IMG/VR virus record: IMGVR_UViG_3300024343_000023
Coordinates: 1-44,801 of that record
DNA: 44,801 bases
Origin: a virus
Reading direction: 5' to 3' (one strand)
Position 1 is the stretch's first letter. The number at the start of each line of letters is the position of its first letter. The translations under genes were made by a program, and so were the position numbers. Below, one piece after another: positions 3,042 through 31,900 of the stretch. The notes under the pieces are model-generated. The model searched no databases, was not told the DNA's origin, and saw nothing but the letters and a program-made list of their open reading frames with translations.

Positions 3042-4637
3042 ATGGACAACAACATTGTTTTAGAAGAAGACGAAGATGACGAGTTCTTCCCTGAGGAAGA
3101 GCTCGAAGAAGGCCTGCCTGAAGAAGAAGAAGATATTGAGCTTGATGAGCTCTCTAAAGAGTTTGTAAAAAAGCTAATTGATAGATGTATTGAGTTCATG
3201 AACGCTTTAGTAGGCCATGAGCTACACCCTTATCAAATGCCTCTTGCCCGTCGCATCATTGAGTCCGTAATTATCAATGACGGTGAAGAAGTAACAGCGT
3301 TAGCCGCACGTCAGTCAGGTAAGTCTGAAACAATTGCTAATACCGTAGCAACGCTAATGGTGCTTTTGCCACGCCTTGCAAAGATGTATCCAGACCTATT
3401 AGGTCAGTTTAAAGAGGGCATCTGGATTGGTATGTTTGCTCCAGTTGAAGGTCAGGTAGAAACTCTCTTTGGTCGCACTGTTAATAGGCTTACTAGCGAA
3501 CGTGCTTTAGAGATTTTAGGTGACCCTGAGATTGATGACAGCCTAGGTAAAGTTCCAGGCGTTACTAGACAAATTAAATTAAAGAACTCTGGCAGTAGCC
3601 TTATGATGATGACAGCTAACCCACGTGCAAAGATTGAATCTAAGTCTTTCCACCTTATTGTTATTGACGAGTGTCAAGAAGCAGATGACTTCGTGGTATC
3701 TAAGTCTATCTCTCCTATGCTTGCGTACTACTCAGGAACCATGGTTAAGACTGGAACTCCTACTACGCATAAAAACAACTTCTATCGTTCTATCCAACTC
3801 AATAAGCGTAGACAGACAGGTAGAGGAATTCGCACTAACCACTTTGAGTGGGATTACAGAGATGTAAGTAAGTGCAACGCTAACTACGCAAAGTTCATTA
3901 AAAAAGAAATGCTGCGTATTGGCGAAGACTCAGATGAGTTCCAGATGTCCTACTGCTGTAAGTGGTTGCTGGAACGAGGTATGTTCGTAACCTCAGCTAT
4001 GATGGATGAGCTTGGAGACACATCTCAAGAAACCGTTAAGGCTTGGCACCGTTCCCCAGTTGTAGTAGGTATTGACCCTGCTCGTAAGATGGACTCCACA
4101 GTTGTCACGGTTGTTTGGGTTGACTGGGATAGGCCTGATGAGTTTGGATATTTTGACCATAGAATTTTAAACTGGCTGGAGTTACAAGGTGATGACTGGG
4201 AAGACCAATACTTTCAAATCGTTAATTTCTTGGGGAGTTACGACGTACTTGCTGTTGGCGTTGACGCTAACGGCGTGGGTGATGCGGTTGCACAAAGACT
4301 CAAACTCCTCCTCCCAAGAGCAGAAGTACATTCCATAGGAAGTAGTCAACCAGAGCAATCAAAGCGTTGGAAACACCTTAAGGCTTTAATTGACCGCAGA
4401 TTAGTTGGTTGGCCTGCACACGCAAAGACAAGGCGACTACGGACCTGGAAGCGTTTCTACCAACAAATGACAGACTTGGAAACTAAGTTCACAGGACCTA
4501 ACTTCCTTGCTCATGCGCCAGATGAGGCGCATGCCCACGATGACTATGCGGACAGCCTTGCAATAGCCGTATCTTTAACTTTAGATATGACTATGCCTTC
4601 GGTTGAAGTATCTACCTCCCCGTTCTTCAGTAGGTAG
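3042..4637 (+). CDS. terL: Terminase large subunit
   Basis: A 531-residue DNA-packaging motor protein. It has an ATPase domain with Walker A-like AARQSGKSE (88-96), Walker B LIVIDE (205-210) with a following acidic residue, and a coupling motif near GTPTTHKNN (228-236). A C-terminal RNase H-like nuclease follows, with VVGIDPARKMDST (341-353), GVDANG and a final HDDYADSLA acidic triad element. It cuts concatemeric DNA and pumps it through the portal. The first 38 residues form an unusual, almost entirely acidic extension before the normal start of the family. A TATATT-like -10 and AAGG ribosome-binding site precede it. Downstream come portal and scaffold genes, as expected. Confidence 0.95.
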   Translation: MDNNIVLEEDEDDEFFPEEELEEGLPEEEEDIELDELSKEFVKKLIDRCIEFMNALVGHELHPYQMPLARRIIESVIINDGEEVTALAARQSGKSETIANTVATLMVLLPRLAKMYPDLLGQFKEGIWIGMFAPVEGQVETLFGRTVNRLTSERALEILGDPEIDDSLGKVPGVTRQIKLKNSGSSLMMMTANPRAKIESKSFHLIVIDECQEADDFVVSKSISPMLAYYSGTMVKTGTPTTHKNNFYRSIQLNKRRQTGRGIRTNHFEWDYRDVSKCNANYAKFIKKEMLRIGEDSDEFQMSYCCKWLLERGMFVTSAMMDELGDTSQETVKAWHRSPVVVGIDPARKMDSTVVTVVWVDWDRPDEFGYFDHRILNWLELQGDDWEDQYFQIVNFLGSYDVLAVGVDANGVGDAVAQRLKLLLPRAEVHSIGSSQPEQSKRWKHLKALIDRRLVGWPAHAKTRRLRTWKRFYQQMTDLETKFTGPNFLAHAPDEAHAHDDYADSLAIAVSLTLDMTMPSVEVSTSPFFSR

Positions 4638-4718
4638 TTACCCGTTTAGCCTGACTTTACGACCAATAAGTAGGACACTTTTACACGAGGTCCTCAACCC
4701 TTATAAGGAGTATAAAAA

Positions 4719-5117
4719 ATGGCAATTGCCCCAACACCTAAGTTCCCTGAAAAGCCAGGAACCACTTACGACCGTAAGATGGCTTCTGCAACACCAGGAC
4801 AACGTGGCCCACTACGTTTTGAAGAAGGTCTTGCAACTGATACTGACATTCCTAGCGAATTCACTAACGGTGCAATGCATGGATACGAACCTGCACCAGG
4901 TCGTCCAAACCGTAACAAGCCTGTTCACACAAAGACAGCAGAAGAAACAATGCGTGAACGCGCACACGTTGGTTCTGCAGCATGGGTAGAAGCACCAGCA
5001 AGCCTTACTGATTTTTCAGCAGGCGGATTTGCTGACCATGGAGATAACCGCATTGAGCGCGTAATTCGCAGCGGTGCAAACCAAAAAGCATCTAACCCAG
5101 CAGTAGTAAACGATTAA
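4719..5117 (+). CDS. Hypothetical protein between terminase and portal
   Basis: A 132-residue protein with a good ribosome-binding site (AAGGAG). It is polar, Pro/Gly-rich and probably partly disordered at the N-terminus (TPKFPEKPGTTYDRK). No membrane segment or recognised motif. The position between terminase and portal suggests a minor virion or packaging-related protein, but this is only context. The 81 bases before it hold no gene. Confidence 0.6.
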   Translation: MAIAPTPKFPEKPGTTYDRKMASATPGQRGPLRFEEGLATDTDIPSEFTNGAMHGYEPAPGRPNRNKPVHTKTAEETMRERAHVGSAAWVEAPASLTDFSAGGFADHGDNRIERVIRSGANQKASNPAVVND

Positions 5118-5125
5118 TTAGGTTT

Positions 5126-5166
5126 CCTACCCCCGTTCAGCATATTTGAAAAGCTGCGGGGGTAGG
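5126..5166 (+). terminator. Strong intergenic hairpin (partial terminator?)
   Basis: CCTACCCCCG (5126-5135) pairs with CGGGGGTAGG (5157-5166); CAGC (5138-5141) pairs with GCTG (5153-5156) after a two-base bulge. The loop is 5142-5152. The downstream run is only moderately T-rich, so it could be a leaky terminator or an mRNA-stabilising structure between the genes at 4719 and 5190. Confidence 0.6.
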
Positions 5167-5189
5167 TTCCTCATTTCTAAGGATTAACA

Positions 5190-5495
5190 ATGGCACTTAT
5201 CTCAGGTAAAGAAGTAAAAAAGACGGAAGAGCGCGTAGCCGCAAATCCTAAACTTTGGAACATGATTACCGCTCAAGCGGGAGCAAAGTTCTCTAAAAAC
5301 TCACCTGCCCGTGGTCACTGGATTCATGCTAAATACAATCAAATGGGTGGTCAATACGTCAACTCTAAAAGAGAAGTAGACCCACGTTTTCGAGATTACG
5401 CACACGAAGAGATAGAAAAAAAAGAAGAGCAGCAAAAAAAGAAGGTTGTTAAAAAAGTTGGCAAGGCCAATATCCGCGGCGAGCGTATTCGCTAA
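5190..5495 (+). CDS. Small basic hypothetical protein
   Basis: A 101-residue protein with AAGGA just upstream of ATG. The N-terminal 70 residues look folded (NPKLWNMITAQAGAKF, RGHWIHAKYNQMGG), followed by a highly charged helix rich in Lys/Glu (72-90). The overall charge is strongly positive, so nucleic-acid contact is possible. No family is recognised. It lies between terminase and portal, in the packaging block. Confidence 0.6.
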   Translation: MALISGKEVKKTEERVAANPKLWNMITAQAGAKFSKNSPARGHWIHAKYNQMGGQYVNSKREVDPRFRDYAHEEIEKKEEQQKKKVVKKVGKANIRGERIR

Positions 5496-26464: not shown

Positions 26465-27967
26465 ATGGCATTTCAACGCCCAGGGGTATACGTCGAAGAG
26501 ACACTAAACCCTATTCAACCAGTTGTTGGAGCTAACTCAGACTCTGTTGCTGCCTTTATTGGTGCAGCTGATAGAGGTCCAGTTGGTGTTCCAACTCTAG
26601 TAACATCTTGGAGCCAGTATGTTGCAGCATTTGGTTCTTGGAACTCAGTAGCAAGCAACGACTTGCCACTTGGTGTCTATATGTATTTCTCAAACGGTGG
26701 AAACCAAGCGTACATTGTACGTGCAGCAAACGCTGCAGTTTTAGCAACACGTTCATTAAATGACCGTGCTGTAAGCCCGTCAGCAACATTAACAATTGCA
26801 GCTAACAGCCCAGGTGCATGGGGAAATAACCTAAACGTTAGTATTGTTAACTCTATTACTACAGGTTATTTTGATTTAATTGTGTACGCTGGTGGAACAA
26901 CAGACTCTAACGTTGTTGAGCGTTTTACAGACCTTAGCATGACACTTTCTGATAACCGTTACGCAATTACATCTGTAAACGCTTCCTCACAGTATGTAAG
27001 ACTAACTGACCTTAACTCAGGTAACACAGGAGCTACACGTAACCCAGCAGTAGTAACCAACCAAGCACTAGCATCAGGTTCAAATGGAAATGCAATTGCT
27101 GGGTCTGACTACTCAACTGCAGCAGCTACCTTAGATACCGTTCTACAATCTTTGGTACTTAACGCTCCAGGAGTAACTGCAGCAGCTACTGTAAATATTT
27201 TGATTAACTATGCGGCTAGCCGTGAAGATGTGTTTGTAGTAATCGATGGTCAAGATACCACCCCAGCTACACAGCTAGCGCTTGCTGCTACCTATACACC
27301 TTCTTCACTTGCAGCTGTTTACTACCCAGCATTAGTAATTGCAGACCCAACAGTCACTATTGGCTCAGCAGCTGGTTTAACAAAAACTGTTGGTGCTGGA
27401 GCTGCTGTAGCTGGATTAATTGCTGCAACTGATTCAGTACGTGGAGTTTTCAAAGCTCCTGCTGGTTTGCAGGCTCGTCTTGCTGGCGTTGTTTCTGCTC
27501 GTCAGCTTACAAATGCAAACCTTGACGCTCTTAACTCAGCTGCTGCTCCAGTAAATGCAATTAAGTTTGTACCTGGTAACGGCTATGTAGTTATGGGCGC
27601 ACGTACTCTTAAGGCTGGTTACGTGGATAAGTACGTACCAGTACGTCGCACACTTATCTACCTACGTAAGTCTCTTACAGACCTAACACAATTTGCAATC
27701 TTTGAGCCAAATGACGAAGCTCTATGGCGTCGAATTGATGCAACTCTTGAAGGGTTCTTAACAGCATTTTGGGCAGAAGGCGGCCTTCGTGGCGCAACTC
27801 CTGACTCAGCGTTCTTCATTAAAATCGATGGGGAAAACAATCCTCAGTATTTGATTGACAATGGAGAAGTGCATATTGAAGTTGGTGTTGCTTTGCAGCG
27901 TCCAGCGGAATTCATTGTAATTAAAATTGGTCAGTTTGACGGTGGAACCACCGTTACTGTGGCGTAA
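26465..27967 (+). CDS. Tail sheath protein
   Basis: A 500-residue sheath subunit with AAGGAG upstream. The N-terminus MAFQRPGVYVEETLNPIQPV with the following AFIGAADRGP is diagnostic of phage and phage-like contractile sheaths. A middle insertion domain (about 100-250) and the C-terminal core follow (INDG-like DALNSAAAPVNAIKFVPGNG, GARTLK, YVPVRRTLIYLRKSL, then IEVGVALQRPAEFIVIKIGQ). The sheath contracts to drive the tube into the host. The tube gene follows 14 bases downstream. Confidence 0.96.
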   Translation: MAFQRPGVYVEETLNPIQPVVGANSDSVAAFIGAADRGPVGVPTLVTSWSQYVAAFGSWNSVASNDLPLGVYMYFSNGGNQAYIVRAANAAVLATRSLNDRAVSPSATLTIAANSPGAWGNNLNVSIVNSITTGYFDLIVYAGGTTDSNVVERFTDLSMTLSDNRYAITSVNASSQYVRLTDLNSGNTGATRNPAVVTNQALASGSNGNAIAGSDYSTAAATLDTVLQSLVLNAPGVTAAATVNILINYAASREDVFVVIDGQDTTPATQLALAATYTPSSLAAVYYPALVIADPTVTIGSAAGLTKTVGAGAAVAGLIAATDSVRGVFKAPAGLQARLAGVVSARQLTNANLDALNSAAAPVNAIKFVPGNGYVVMGARTLKAGYVDKYVPVRRTLIYLRKSLTDLTQFAIFEPNDEALWRRIDATLEGFLTAFWAEGGLRGATPDSAFFIKIDGENNPQYLIDNGEVHIEVGVALQRPAEFIVIKIGQFDGGTTVTVA

Positions 27968-27981
27968 AGGAGACCCAATAA

Positions 27982-28689
27982 ATGCCAAATCAAGCTAGTA
28001 TCATAAATCGCTTCTCTACATTAGCGTCTGACCCACTTCGTTCGTTTAGGTTTTACGCGGACTTTGTGCCACATAAGGGACAAGATGTATTTGATAAGCG
28101 AATCCTTAATCAAAACAGTGCAAAGCTTCCTACCACAGGTAAGTCTGAAGGTTGGATTGGTGGCTTCAGCCAGATTTCTGGTCTAAGCATTAATACCCAA
28201 TCTATCCAGTATCGTGAAGGCGGCTACAACACCACTGTTCATCAGATTCCTGGTATGACCACATTCACACCTATCACTTTCCAGCGTGGAGTTATCTACG
28301 GTAACGACCAAGCTCAAACATGGATGCGCGGTCTTTTTGGCGCAGTGTCAGGAGAAGGTCTTCGTACCGCTACTAACGCAAAGAGCTTCCGTGTAGATAT
28401 TAATATCTATGTAATGGACCACCTAAGCGGTCCAGGTGCAAGCGATAAGAACGTTGAAAAGATGGTCTTTAAAGTTCACAACGCTTGGATTTCTACACTT
28501 AACTACACAGACCTAAATGCTGCTGACGGAGCGATTCTTTTTGAATCTATGTCAGTTGTACACGAAGGTTTGTCAGTTTCATATACACAAGGTGGAATTG
28601 GAACAACGGGTTCAAGTACAGGTTCTAGCGGTAGCAGCGGCGGTAGCAGCGGTGGCGGCAGTGGTCGTCCTTCTTACCGACCAGTATAA
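27982..28689 (+). CDS. Tail tube protein (T4 gp19-like)
   Basis: A 235-residue tube subunit. It has the family start (DPLRSFRFYADF), then GGFSQISGLSI, QYREGGYNTTVHQIPGM, and FQRGVIYGNDQAQTWMRGLF, with WISTLNYTDLNAADGAILFESM near the end. The last about 30 residues are a Gly/Ser-rich low-complexity tail (SSGSSGGSSGGGSGRP), longer than usual. Tube rings stack inside the sheath and conduct DNA. Order after sheath is as expected. Confidence 0.93.
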   Translation: MPNQASIINRFSTLASDPLRSFRFYADFVPHKGQDVFDKRILNQNSAKLPTTGKSEGWIGGFSQISGLSINTQSIQYREGGYNTTVHQIPGMTTFTPITFQRGVIYGNDQAQTWMRGLFGAVSGEGLRTATNAKSFRVDINIYVMDHLSGPGASDKNVEKMVFKVHNAWISTLNYTDLNAADGAILFESMSVVHEGLSVSYTQGGIGTTGSSTGSSGSSGGSSGGGSGRPSYRPV

Positions 28690-28720: not shown

Positions 28721-29515
28721 ATGGCAGAAATCATTACAGATGCACAGCTAATCGAACAATTTGCAGCTCAGGCAATGGAGGAGCCCGCGGCGGTCATTAA
28801 GACGCGGGCACCTTCAGAGTCAGAAGTAAAACTTCCAGGAGGTCATATTGACCAAAATGGGGAGCTTCACATGACAGCAGAGGTTAGAGAACTTACTGGA
28901 GCGGATGAAGAGGCAGTGGCTAAAGCTGGTTCTTCAGGCAAAGCTCTTAATGTTCTTTTAGCAAGAGGTTTAGTAAAGATTGGACCTAACAAAGCTACTA
29001 ACGATGACTTAGACACATTGCTGTCTGGAGACAGAGATGCAATCCTTCTAGGTGTTCGACGAGTAACTTTTGGTCAAACTACTGAACTAATGGTTCGTTG
29101 TAGCCACTGTTCAGATGAGCACACTACAACCCTAGATTTATCATCTGATGTTCCAACTACTTATTTAAAAGATGCAGTAGAAGATAGAACATGGGATATG
29201 GAAACAAAGTCTGGGGTAGTTACCGTAGCTCTACCTAACGGTATTACACAAAAGCGATTGATGGAGAACTATGACAAGACTCCAGCTGAGCTTAATACCT
29301 TACTACTATCTGGATGCATTGTTTCACTAGACGGATACCCATCAGTAGGTTCAGGAACAGCTTTGTCTTTAGGCATGGCTGACAGAAACAGAATTGTAGA
29401 TGAAATCCTTAAGCGCAACCCAGGCCCTCGCCTTGGGGAGGTGACCAAGGCTTGTAAGGCATGTGGAGAAGAAATCTTCCTACCACTGTCCTTGTTAGAT
29501 TTGTTTCGTCTATAG
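28721..29515 (+). CDS. Tail assembly chaperone, zero-frame product
   Basis: A 264-residue protein in the position between tube and tape measure, where tail assembly chaperones are normally encoded. The centre has ELTGADEEAVAK (58-69) as in baseplate-hub/tail chaperone families of contractile phages. Two CxxC pairs (127/130 and 245/248) suggest a zinc ribbon. It ends DLFRL just before a second frame that continues a plausible partner protein, so a longer +1 frameshifted form is likely (see next entry). A cytoplasmic role guarding the tape measure is inferred. Confidence 0.72.
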   Translation: MAEIITDAQLIEQFAAQAMEEPAAVIKTRAPSESEVKLPGGHIDQNGELHMTAEVRELTGADEEAVAKAGSSGKALNVLLARGLVKIGPNKATNDDLDTLLSGDRDAILLGVRRVTFGQTTELMVRCSHCSDEHTTTLDLSSDVPTTYLKDAVEDRTWDMETKSGVVTVALPNGITQKRLMENYDKTPAELNTLLLSGCIVSLDGYPSVGSGTALSLGMADRNRIVDEILKRNPGPRLGEVTKACKACGEEIFLPLSLLDLFRL

Positions 29516-29660
29516 CGAAGCTGATTACGAAGAACTGTTAGACCAGTTTGAAGTTCTCACAAGAACTTTTACGGGTTGGACACTTTCAGACATACGTGCA
29601 CTATCAGTTAGAGAAAGAGCTAACTGGATGGAGCGCTCTAAGAGAACGGTTAGGAGGTAA
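29499..29660 (+). CDS. Frameshift extension of the tail assembly chaperone (+1 frame)
   Basis: An open frame with no ATG, GTG or TTG start runs in the +1 frame and ends at 29660 in the ribosome-binding site of the next gene. It reads SEADYEELLDQFEVLTRTFT, then GWTLSDIRALSVRERANWM, like the C-terminal halves of frameshifted chaperones and gp51-type proteins. The only codon in the shared window where the P-site tRNA can re-pair after +1 slip is TTT followed by C (29504-29507; UUU to UUC). The fusion would be about 312 residues. An assembly error is the main alternative. Confidence 0.65.
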   Translation: MCFVYSEADYEELLDQFEVLTRTFTGWTLSDIRALSVRERANWMERSKRTVRR

Positions 29661-29665
29661 GGCAG

Positions 29666-31900
29666 TTGCTTAATTTACCAAGCGGTAAAGCTGGCTCGGT
29701 TATCTCTGATATTGCATCAGGTATATCCCAGTTAAGACAACAGATGCAGGGTCTTAAACAAGACACTAGCGGATGGGTAAACACCTTAGGCGGAGCCACC
29801 TCTAAATTCGGTTCAACTGCTGGGGGAGCTACTAACCAAGTAGCGCCATACCCAAAATTTAGCGTTGACGCTGACGGTGTTGTTAATTACCAGGGAACAA
29901 CAAGCGGTAATACAGGCCTAGTTTTTCAGCAGAATGCTTTACAACCTTACGTTAATCCAACCTATGCAGCGCCACCACCAACTGGAAGAACACCTTCGGG
30001 TGGCGGGGGTGATTATCGAGCTGCCATGGCTGCGGGAGCACTTGGTGGTATGCAGGCAATGCCTGGTACAAAAGAGTCTGTTGATTATCAGCTTGCTCTT
30101 AGTCGTATGGTTTTTTACCAGCAAGCTCCTAACGCAACTGCTGGTAGTGGAAGTATCTTTAGTCGCCTTGGTATAGGTAAGGGTGACCCAGGAAGAGCTG
30201 GCGCACGTATTGCTGCAGAGCAACTGATGGCTGGTGGAACTGCAACTAATAAATTTGATGCGGTTAATGCTTACGCTACAGCAGCTCAGTACGGTTTGTC
30301 TGGACCTAACATGCAACAGATGATGATGGGCAATGCTGCTATGTCTAACCTTACTCCTGGTATTGGACTTGAAGGTTCCACACGTGCCTACGGAGCTATG
30401 CAGCAAGCGCGTAACGTTAACATGCTTCGCGGTATTGGTATCAAGATTCGTGGTGAAGATGGTTCTATGAAACCTATGCCACAAATCATTGATGAGATTT
30501 GGCGCAAGCTTAACCGTGAAAAAATTGGTGGAGCTGCCCTTAGCGTAGAAGATGTTCGTATCTCTTTACAGCCTGGTAATGCTCTTGCTTCTATGCTTGA
30601 CCAGTACTTTGGCAATGACCCACTACTTCGTAAGCAAGTAGAGGATGGTCTTATCTTTAAAGCTCGTACTGGTGGCGGAGCCATCAAGAGCGGTGCGGAA
30701 GGTAAACGAGCAGCTGAACAAGCTGGTGCTACTACTGCCGCTGTATCATCTTTGTCTAATAGAACTGCAGAAGCATCTAAAACGCTTGGTCAAACAGCTG
30801 ATGCTAACGCTGCTGGGTTTACTCAAGCTAACAATGTTATTAAAACTATAACTGGAATTGTAAATCTTTTTGATAGAATTACTGGAGTACTAAAGCTAAG
30901 CGGGCTCTTTAAAGGATTTGCAGACACTATTGCAAGTGCTGGAAACTTTGCATTTGCTGGCCCAGCTGGAGTTGTCAGTGCTCTTGGAGGATTGTTTAAA
31001 GCCGAGGGTGGACCCGTAGCAGGAAAGTCTCCGTACATTGTAGGTGAGCGTGGACCTGAGCTCTTTGTTCCTAAGACTGACGGAAAGATTGTTCCTAACC
31101 ACGAGCTAGCAAACTACCCGTTCCGTGCTGGTGGCGGTGGCGTAAAAGCTGGGGGATATGGACTAGGGGATAAATCTAGCCCAGAAGATTGGGCTAAAGC
31201 AATGCTAAGAGCTTTGGGTGCCCCAGAAAAACAAGACTCTATTGATGCTCTAAAGACCTGGGCTAGATTTGAGGGTGGACACTTTTCAAACAACGGAAAC
31301 CACGGAGCTAGATTTAATCCATTAAATACAAGTTTGAAACTCCCAGGCTCTGGCCCTATGAGCGAGAAGAATAAACTTGTTCAAAGATATCAAAACTGGG
31401 ACCAAGGTATTGACGCTGCTGTAAAAACTCTTACAGGAAACAGGGCAGATGAACGTGGTTACTCTGCAATTGTTGAAGCACTTCGCAAGGGTGCCGATAA
31501 AGATGCAATCCTTGCTGCAGTAAATAAATCTGCTTGGGTACATGGAGAAGGAAAAAATAGTAACTACAAGTTTGCAGGCTCTAGCTCTAAGTATGATGTT
31601 GACTTTAAACCTGGTAGTAGCTCAACAGTGTTTAATAACGGAAACAGCGAAAGCAGCGGAAGAGTAACTTTGCGCTCTTTGATGGAAAGAGAAAAAGAAA
31701 GTACAAAAACTTTGCTAGCTGATTTAACAAAAAATATGGGAGAGTTCAATAAGAGCTCAAGCGCGTCTACTGGTCACACCTATAACTATGGGGGAGTTCA
31801 AATTAAGATTGATGGAAGTACTAACCCTAACGATACTGCTGCAGCTCTGAAGGCAGCTTTATCAAGTCAAGATACTATTTCAAAGGCGGCTAAATTCTAA
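29666..31900 (+). CDS. Tape measure protein with hydrolase-like domain
   Basis: A 744-residue protein, TTG start with AGGAGGT eight bases upstream. The N-terminus is helical/Gly-rich, hydrophobic segments lie at about 390-442, and EGGPVAGKSPYIVGERGPEL (about 447-466), followed by FVPKTDGKI, is the typical tape-measure C-terminal signature. After it (about 500-640) comes a domain with WARFEGGHFSNNGNHGARFN, SEKNKLVQRYQNWDQGID and GYSAIVEALRKGADKDAI, like muramidase/transglycosylase domains that open peptidoglycan during DNA entry. The length sets tail length. Catalysis is inferred from the pattern (candidate Glu in RFEGGH). Confidence 0.82.
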   Translation: MLNLPSGKAGSVISDIASGISQLRQQMQGLKQDTSGWVNTLGGATSKFGSTAGGATNQVAPYPKFSVDADGVVNYQGTTSGNTGLVFQQNALQPYVNPTYAAPPPTGRTPSGGGGDYRAAMAAGALGGMQAMPGTKESVDYQLALSRMVFYQQAPNATAGSGSIFSRLGIGKGDPGRAGARIAAEQLMAGGTATNKFDAVNAYATAAQYGLSGPNMQQMMMGNAAMSNLTPGIGLEGSTRAYGAMQQARNVNMLRGIGIKIRGEDGSMKPMPQIIDEIWRKLNREKIGGAALSVEDVRISLQPGNALASMLDQYFGNDPLLRKQVEDGLIFKARTGGGAIKSGAEGKRAAEQAGATTAAVSSLSNRTAEASKTLGQTADANAAGFTQANNVIKTITGIVNLFDRITGVLKLSGLFKGFADTIASAGNFAFAGPAGVVSALGGLFKAEGGPVAGKSPYIVGERGPELFVPKTDGKIVPNHELANYPFRAGGGGVKAGGYGLGDKSSPEDWAKAMLRALGAPEKQDSIDALKTWARFEGGHFSNNGNHGARFNPLNTSLKLPGSGPMSEKNKLVQRYQNWDQGIDAAVKTLTGNRADERGYSAIVEALRKGADKDAILAAVNKSAWVHGEGKNSNYKFAGSSSKYDVDFKPGSSSTVFNNGNSESSGRVTLRSLMEREKESTKTLLADLTKNMGEFNKSSSASTGHTYNYGGVQIKIDGSTNPNDTAAALKAALSSQDTISKAAKF

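Follow-up and report, generated by a model that had tools for sequence, protein, structure and literature searches.

Programmed frameshifting in tail assembly chaperones of the G-T type is known, including +1 and -2 variants, from the part of PMC5009743 that concerns these genes, which is also the source used here for the role of the long form in lambda gpG/gpGT and which gives the Listeria tail sites as CCC_UGA, unlike UUU_C. SPP1 is named as a phage +1 case in a passage of PMC3498833, and for the T4-like phages the passage on chaperones in PMC10885494, citing Vladimirov et al. 2022, describes a short and a long gene, without frameshifting. In influenza A the sequence UUU_CGU of PA-X gives a +1 shift, shown by a shift-spanning peptide and with an efficiency of ~1%, and the mechanism of the UUU_CGN shift in eukaryotic viruses is described as unsettled (both in the part of PMC3498833 on this shift). 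The motif UUU_CGN was also proposed as a +1 site in plant amalgaviruses in the corresponding part of PMC5052127 and, in the sections of these two papers dealing with the motif, for further viruses too, with a preference for CGN being noted.

The stretch of DNA analysed here, in the following called the window, is the virus record IMGVR_UViG_3300024343_000023 with a length of 44801 bases and a G+C content of 44%. It holds a contractile-tail module of sheath, tube, chaperone and tape measure, with the chaperone gene located between the tube gene (27982-28689) and the tape-measure gene (29666-31900). The features are as follows:

26465-27967, + strand: tail sheath gene (PF17482, E 1.9e-8; phrog_23 tail sheath, E 9.9e-50)
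27982-28689, + strand: tail tube gene (PF06841 gp19, E 1.6e-22)
28721-29515, + strand: frame-0 ORF of 264 aa, predicted to be the short form of a tail assembly chaperone; it resembles T4 gp26 and has two Cys pairs (PF12322, phrog_150, fold model)
29463-29466 and 29483-29486, + strand: candidate upstream stem GTGG / CCAC, its base 17 nt before TTT (pairing in 36 sequences)
29501-29509, + strand: full site TTG_TTT_CGT, the putative E-, P- and A-site codons at the slip (codon preference)
29504-29507, + strand: proposed +1 slip site TTT_C, tRNA-Phe moving from TTT to TTC (conserved in the clade; re-pairing)
29508-29660, + strand: +1-frame tail of 50 codons (VYSEADYEELLDQFEVL...SKRTVRR), with the stop TAA at 29658-29660 (dN/dS, profile similarity)
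29652-29658, + strand: Shine-Dalgarno sequence of the tape-measure gene, AGGAGGT, which overlaps the tail at its end (read from the sequence)
29666-31900, + strand: tape-measure gene of 744 aa with a TTG start at 29666 (phrog_10574 tail length tape measure, E 1.3e-5)

The chaperone gene starts with the ATG at 28721 and its frame-0 stop, TAG at 29513-29515, is the third codon past the slip codon, which confirms the end at 29515 given in an earlier note on this DNA. The +1 frame has a TAG at 29496-29498, is open from 29499 to 29657, a length of 53 codons of which 48 lie from 29514 onwards, and closes with the TAA at 29658-29660; its earliest ATG, GTG or TTG is the ATG at 29628, close to its end. 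The earlier note had described it as a start-less frame carrying 48 further codons of protein up to the ribosome-binding site of the tape-measure gene, and this description holds: none of the three start codons precedes 29628, the tail is under selection (dN/dS 0.14) and it ends on the AGGAGGT at 29652-29658. Between the +1 stop at 29496-29498 and the frame-0 stop, TTT_C (29504-29507) was again found to be the only place of clean re-pairing. The -1 frame in the window closes after 29538, with no X_XXY_YYZ heptamer at the slip site, and a search within the window for tRNA genes and Rfam families found none.

Judging from sequence comparison, the gene is very probably a tail assembly chaperone gene with a +1 frameshift at UUU_C, from which a fusion protein is predicted. 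Most ribosomes would stop at 29515 and give the short form of 264 residues, and in a minority peptidyl-tRNA-Phe on UUU (29504-29506), with the Arg codon CGU in the A site, would slip +1 to UUC (29505-29507). GUC would then be read next, giving a fusion of 312 residues when TTTC is read as a single step (...LLDLF-VYSEADYEELL...SKRTVRR), with the predicted junction ...DLFVYSEADYEELL... and ...GILFANS... as its Streptomyces equivalent. If lambda gpG/gpGT is taken as the model, both forms would coat the tape-measure protein, the tail of the long form would recruit tail-tube subunits and neither form would be present in the virion.

Homologues were sought first in a scan that yielded 10 loci; a stop could be read in 9, all of which had the same layout. 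With the Streptomyces phages LuckySocke, BRock, GiJojo and pSt2308, a profile scan of viral contigs (best 80 of 316) and bacterial genomes (3 loci) added, TTT_C was present in 87 of 87 readable loci, the window's own record included (L008 and L065 end too early). Further scans contributed 35 loci and three sets of 80, the top-ranking ones among at least 600, 437 and at least 592, bringing the collection to 376 loci, of which 368 have both a hit and a stop; left out were L008, L065, L109, L115, L133, L185 and L302, which end before the stop, and L095 (T4), which gave no hit. The window's clade, assigned by best query, comprises 166 readable loci with its own record included and some contigs present twice, corresponding to 97 distinct sequences over 108 nt.

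The overlap is conserved throughout this clade, all 166 loci having a broken frame, a TTT followed by C or T 1-7 codons from the frame-0 stop, and a +1 tail. The slip site is conserved as well: among the 97 distinct sequences, many of which are closely related and do not count as independent, 93 carry TTT_C and 4 carry TTT_T. The earlier note had proposed a +1 slip at UUU_C in the tail chaperone and a comparison with homologues for a conserved UUUC site; this comparison supports the proposal, with TTT_C in 93/97 and TTT_T in 4/97, and homologues that speak against it, either with both parts in a single frame or as separate genes with conserved starts of their own, were sought among the 97 distinct sequences of the window's clade and none was found. 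In the TTT_C sequences the frame-0 stop follows TTT as the 2nd to 7th codon, in most cases the 3rd (64) or 4th (24), and in the four TTT_T sequences it comes straight after TTT. In L333, L336, L351 and L357 the site reads TTG TTT TAA/TAG, with the frame-0 stop itself in the A site; the RF2 gene likewise has its frame-0 stop in the A site at the shift.

The clade has identities to the frame-0 protein of the window from 30% up (aligned rows) and a gene G+C from 0.72 to below 0.5, and consists of contigs from metagenomes and from bacterial genomes together with Streptomyces phage isolates. Among its members are contigs of Streptomyces diastatochromogenes and Terracoccus (Actinomycetota), and the known hosts of the phage family are mostly actinobacteria. 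The clade's gene was also seen on a short contig (L089, 4 kb) that belongs to a proteobacterial MAG and may be a misbinned phage contig.

The tail is complete in 96 of the 97 distinct sequences, with a length of 44-83 codons (median 51). Its dN/dS, calculated from 289 pooled pairs among 71 near relatives, is 0.139 in the +1 frame compared with 2.212 in frame 0 and 0.942 in the -1 frame, the pairs not being independent and the contrast between the frames being large; the frame-0 stretch upstream gave 0.200 in the same pairs. The tail is thus under purifying selection in the +1 frame only, and it is coding. In named records the small ORF annotated here starts 46 nt (BRock, GiJojo) or 88 nt (LuckySocke) past the slip codon, pSt2308 (L014 4724-4982) has no annotated feature over the tail region and the gene at the tape-measure position in BRock (L012 4963-8040) is annotated as an endolysin.

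A coding tail could also be a separate small protein, started in the +1 frame either at a non-AUG codon or by reinitiation past the frame-0 stop, and the GenBank annotators of LuckySocke, BRock, GiJojo and Alone3 did call separate small ORFs. The relatives in KVP40 and S-SM2, with their tail in the -1 frame, have an ATG, as do 53 of the 55 distinct tails of the cyanophage/KVP40 clade, and separate initiation is therefore possible in that -1 clade. In the window's clade, however, 69 of 96 distinct tails lack an ATG in their first 25 codons and 49 of 96 lack ATG, GTG and TTG alike, while within 12 codons on either side of the site these three codons are absent in 48 of 97 sequences. Relatives with GACTTG have ACT in place of the ATT at 29499, and a separate start leaves both the constant TTT_Y and the preference for UUG unexplained, so that this reading appears improbable. 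The same frame, with one extra residue (LFF-VY compared with LF-VY), would be reached by a -2 slip as in phage Mu, and re-pairing works for +1 as well as for -2 in the related TTTTTTTGG clade. Within the window's clade +1 re-pairing is acceptable in 97/97, onto TTC (93) or TTT (4), whereas a -2 slip puts tRNA-Phe on TTT or TTC in 0/97 and is acceptable in none, the codon faced being TGT (82), TCT (10) or TAT (5); this re-pairing points to +1 as the direction and makes -2 highly unlikely. No other clean +1 site lies between TTT and the frame-0 stop in 96 of the 97 sequences.

Slippage of the RNA polymerase, which is used by other bacterial and viral genes, could make the second frame already in the transcript, and seven T are found in some distant relatives; with three T in a row at the site of the window (TTGTTTCG), a run too short for the transcriptional slippage known so far, it is here a very remote alternative. 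That the two parts are really one frame, separated by a sequencing error or by decay of the gene, has the broken frame itself in its favour and nothing else. The same broken frame recurs in 166/166 readable loci of the clade, from independent assemblies and in metagenomes, phage isolates and bacterial contigs, which argues against an indel and leaves this possibility close to negligible.

Around the proposed +1 slip at UUU_C the codon choice departs from that elsewhere in the gene. In 14 distinct sequences with a G+C >55%, Phe is encoded elsewhere by TTT 3 times compared with 62 for TTC, and the slip site is still TTT. The Leu codon in the putative E site is TTG in 61 of 71 sequences of the window's group compared with 13% of 2079 Leu codons elsewhere, and among 26 divergent sequences the E-site codon is CTG (14), TTG (6), ATC (4), CTC (1) or CTA (1). 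The A-site codon of the 93 TTT_C sites is CGN in 76 cases, followed by CTC (8), CAA (5), CAG (3) and CCG (1). The motif, in most cases UUU_CGN and preceded by a conserved Leu codon, goes beyond the earlier note, as do the T4 gp26 family and the other sites in related clades described below, and both the UUG and the CGN codon may stimulate the shift. A rare A-site codon was considered as a simple cause and rejected: among the Arg codons of the window CGT is the most frequent (267/596), and a slow A-site codon is therefore not obvious.

Away from the slip site, the genes of the window's group have in-frame TTT_C 3 times compared with 36.6 expected (TTC then C: 6/44), and the 26 divergent sequences have it 4 times compared with 5.4 expected (TTC then C: 18/123); avoidance of TTT_C is strong in the former and absent in the latter. 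Across the whole window, with the slip site included, TTT_C is also under-used (26 seen, 61.4 expected), and the avoidance is therefore in part a general codon-context effect. In-frame TTT_CG in the 43 predicted genes of the window was seen 3 times compared with 11.0 expected, slip site included; the only other instances in these genes are at positions 2062 and 5388.

A downstream stimulatory structure was looked for in the 97 sequences and rejected: this region gave a mean z of -0.95 (+7 to +67) and -1.07 (+7 to +107), with 21 and 22 sequences below -2, and a consensus fold of 42 sequences revealed nothing downstream and one weak upstream hairpin. The stretch before the site had a mean z of -1.68 with 39/97 below -2, and this pointed to an upstream stem. 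In the 36 distinct sequences of the window's subgroup such a stem can form between GYGG and CCRC, 18-41 nt ahead of TTT, with all 4 pairs kept in 36/36. At the third positions of its Cys and Pro codons this stem combines T-A (18), C-G (15), T-G (3) and C-A (0) (n=36; Fisher p 2.9e-7, uncorrected for relatedness), and parsimony on a protein tree excluding the stretch gave 7 changes at each stem position and 9 jointly. All stem cells (100%) pair, compared with 35-85% when slid by 1-3 columns. Pro codons elsewhere are mostly CCA (173) and CCT (106), with few CCG (11) and CCC (10), and against this usage CCG is enriched (18/36) and CCT absent (0/36) at the stem site. The stem is just 4 bp long, with a single pair varying on both sides, and the fold energy of the subgroup is not exceptional when compared with synonymous shuffles (mean z -0.86, 6/36 in the lowest 5%); what is observed is a weak upstream stem that covaries in the window's subgroup. 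A sister subgroup (20 distinct sequences) had a mean z of -3.01 with 16/20 in the lowest 5% of synonymous shuffles, mostly with a stem-loop whose end lies 3-7 nt upstream of TTT; for the 26 divergent sequences the values were a mean z of -0.42 and 3/26 in the lowest 5%.

For the SARS coronavirus site, a stem-loop placed 4 nt upstream in synthetic constructs was reported to lower -1 frameshifting and to be capable of stimulating +1, and a 5' stem-loop has been suggested to act as a motor when T4 gene 60 is bypassed (both in the part of PMC5009743 on upstream structures). From these reports it is reasonable to suppose that the upstream stem might pull the message forward and so stimulate the slip. 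A Shine-Dalgarno stimulator was considered and rejected: AGGAGGT or close variants are present in many sister and divergent sequences (L322-L376 and L087-L320, in the stretch of 42 nt before the slip codon) but ~29 nt before TTT, which is too far for an effect of the RF2 type. The window carries GGAGAAGAAAT where those sequences have AGGAGGT, and its subgroup of 36 was partly defined by lacking GAGGT, the absence there being by construction.

The frame-0 protein matches PF12322 T4_baseplate, the gp26 family, over residues 93-200 only (E 6.4e-8, 33.0 bits, cut-off 24.5) as well as phrog_150 baseplate hub (E 3.5e-7), and by these matches it belongs to the T4 gp26 (PF12322) family. An AlphaFold2 model of the frame-0 product, with 28 sequences as input, reached a pLDDT of 88.4 and a pTM of 0.81. 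When run through Foldseek against the PDB, the HK97 tail assembly chaperone 2ob9 ranked first and fourth (E 0.27 and 1.6), and VIA-align of the model with the HK97 chaperone gave Z 7.0 and rmsd 3.9 over 94 of 104 residues (3fgx, Z 6.0; 5ir0, Z 4.0). The HK97 tail assembly chaperone is thereby the best PDB fold match of the model, which is suggestive, a Z below 8 possibly marking a common arrangement that unrelated folds can reach. Among predicted viral proteins the top matches of the model are T4-like baseplate hub assembly proteins (E 1.7e-21). By sequence, no match for the fusion protein was found in the PDB and a profile search gave one chance-level match (E 1), and the tail of the window alone had no Pfam match and one weak PHROG match, phrog_6416 tail protein (E 0.047).

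Distant gp26-like genes also continue into a tail in another frame, and related clades appear to use other sites, some of them -1. Sites of the +1 type were found in Bacillus SP-15, Streptococcus vB_SagM-GXN1 (TTC TTT CGT), Microcystis Mel-JY01 (TTTTTTTGG) and Flavobacterium immuto (TTT CTT), and the -1 heptamer T_TTT_TTC in KVP40, S-SM2 and Agrobacterium Atu_ph07. The tails following T_TTT_TTC in S-SM2 (L101 2150-2366), KVP40 (L102 2300-2486) and Atu_ph07 (L100 2205-2447) are gp51-like. Counted by loci, which are not independent, and outside the window's clade by a looser rule (an in-frame TTT_C, TTT_T or CCC anywhere within the final 20 codons, together with an open shifted frame), a candidate +1 site is present in 166/166 for the window's clade, 31/32 for SP-15/GXN1 and 82/83 for immuto/Mel (where -2 is often possible too), and the cyanophage/KVP40 clade has a candidate site in 85/86, 84 of them with T_TTT_TTC. 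Outside the window's clade, L091 (-1 tail, T_TTT_TTC farther upstream) and L181 (TTC TTC, -1 tail) have no site within 20 codons of the stop and the contig of L274 ends; L090 (Alishewanella phage Slickus01, 3515-3829) has a +1 tail without TTT_Y near the gene end. Six loci of the SP-15/GXN1 clade have CCC_A only; L122, L125, L127 and L131 lack TTT_Y and have kept AAT CCC AGT with a +1 tail, and these relatives have possibly switched to a CCC_A slip.

Comparison of tail profiles with hhalign gave 97, 94, 94 and 82% for four clade pairs, 82% being the value for the window's clade and the cyanophage clade; the window's clade gave 42% with the SP-15/GXN1 clade and 1.6% with the immuto clade. The small ORFs of KVP40 and S-SM2 correspond to phrog_634, baseplate hub assembly catalyst, a family that the window's own tail did not reach in a search against PHROGs. 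In T4 (L095) the gp26 gene is located at 3803-4429 and the gp51 gene at 4480-5226. T4 gp26 spans phrog_150 from 14 to 235 of 282 and gp51 from 13 to 280 plus phrog_634, and because of this coverage gp26 would match the short form and gp51 the long form; the two look like the short and the long form of the same chaperone, in agreement with the published description of a short and a long gene in T4-like phages (Vladimirov et al. 2022, as cited in PMC10885494).

CGN codons are read by an inosine-bearing tRNA-Arg. A tentative reading, which as a whole we regard as possible and still rather doubtful, is that YUG_UUU_CGN is a +1 signal reached independently in bacterial and eukaryotic viruses. It includes that the core of UUU_C and CGN would reflect a general property of the ribosome, for instance slow acceptance of the inosine tRNA-Arg after a weak UUU pair in the P site, that the phage stem-loop behind the ribosome would pull the message forward as a natural case of the effect seen in synthetic constructs, that one chaperone family would have switched its shift between +1 and -1 close to a shared Phe position, and that T4 would have replaced shifting by two genes.

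When compared with lambda gpG/gpGT and other G-T chaperones, the locus is alike in its position between tube and tape measure and in its short form with a C-terminal extension from another frame; the G-T features present are this position, an overlapping ORF under selection without a conserved start and a conserved slippery site (97/97). The systems differ in that lambda slips -1 whereas the clade of the window would slip +1 at UUU_C, in a T4 gp26-family protein with Cys pairs. A +1 shift in a phage tail gene is known from Listeria A118, A500 and PSA, in the SPP1 major tail protein and in the HSTV-2 chaperone. With T4 gp26/gp51 and with gp26 and the small ORF of KVP40 and cyanophages the locus has the PF12322/phrog_150 family in common, gp51 and the small ORF carrying the tail (phrog_634), but T4 differs in having two separate genes. 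This suggests that the T4-gp26-type tail chaperone uses frameshifting outside T4, and it would explain why, in Streptomyces myoviruses, small genes lying between those for tube and tape measure are left unannotated or appear split.

The UUU_CGN +1 motif is, in the literature covered, otherwise described in eukaryotic viruses; among literature listings and openly readable papers the search found no report of UUU_CGN as a +1 site in phages or of UUU_C in a phage chaperone, and a prior mention in subscription papers is possible. With UUU_C in 93/97 sequences, 76 of them with CGN, the clade forms a natural set of variants in E site, A site and upstream stem, and offers a bacterial system with workable genetics in which the mechanism of UUU_CGN can be tested. 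The influenza PA-X site (UCC_UUU_CGU) and the amalgavirus site have in common with the phage sites UUU_C in the P site, a preference for CGN in the A site, a conserved E-site codon and the continuation in the +1 frame. The phage sites differ from PA-X in being subject to bacterial translation, in an E-site codon that is mostly UUG or CUG and not UCC, and in a product that would be a short and a long assembly chaperone, and the phage and the influenza/amalgavirus sites are convergent, with no homology between them.
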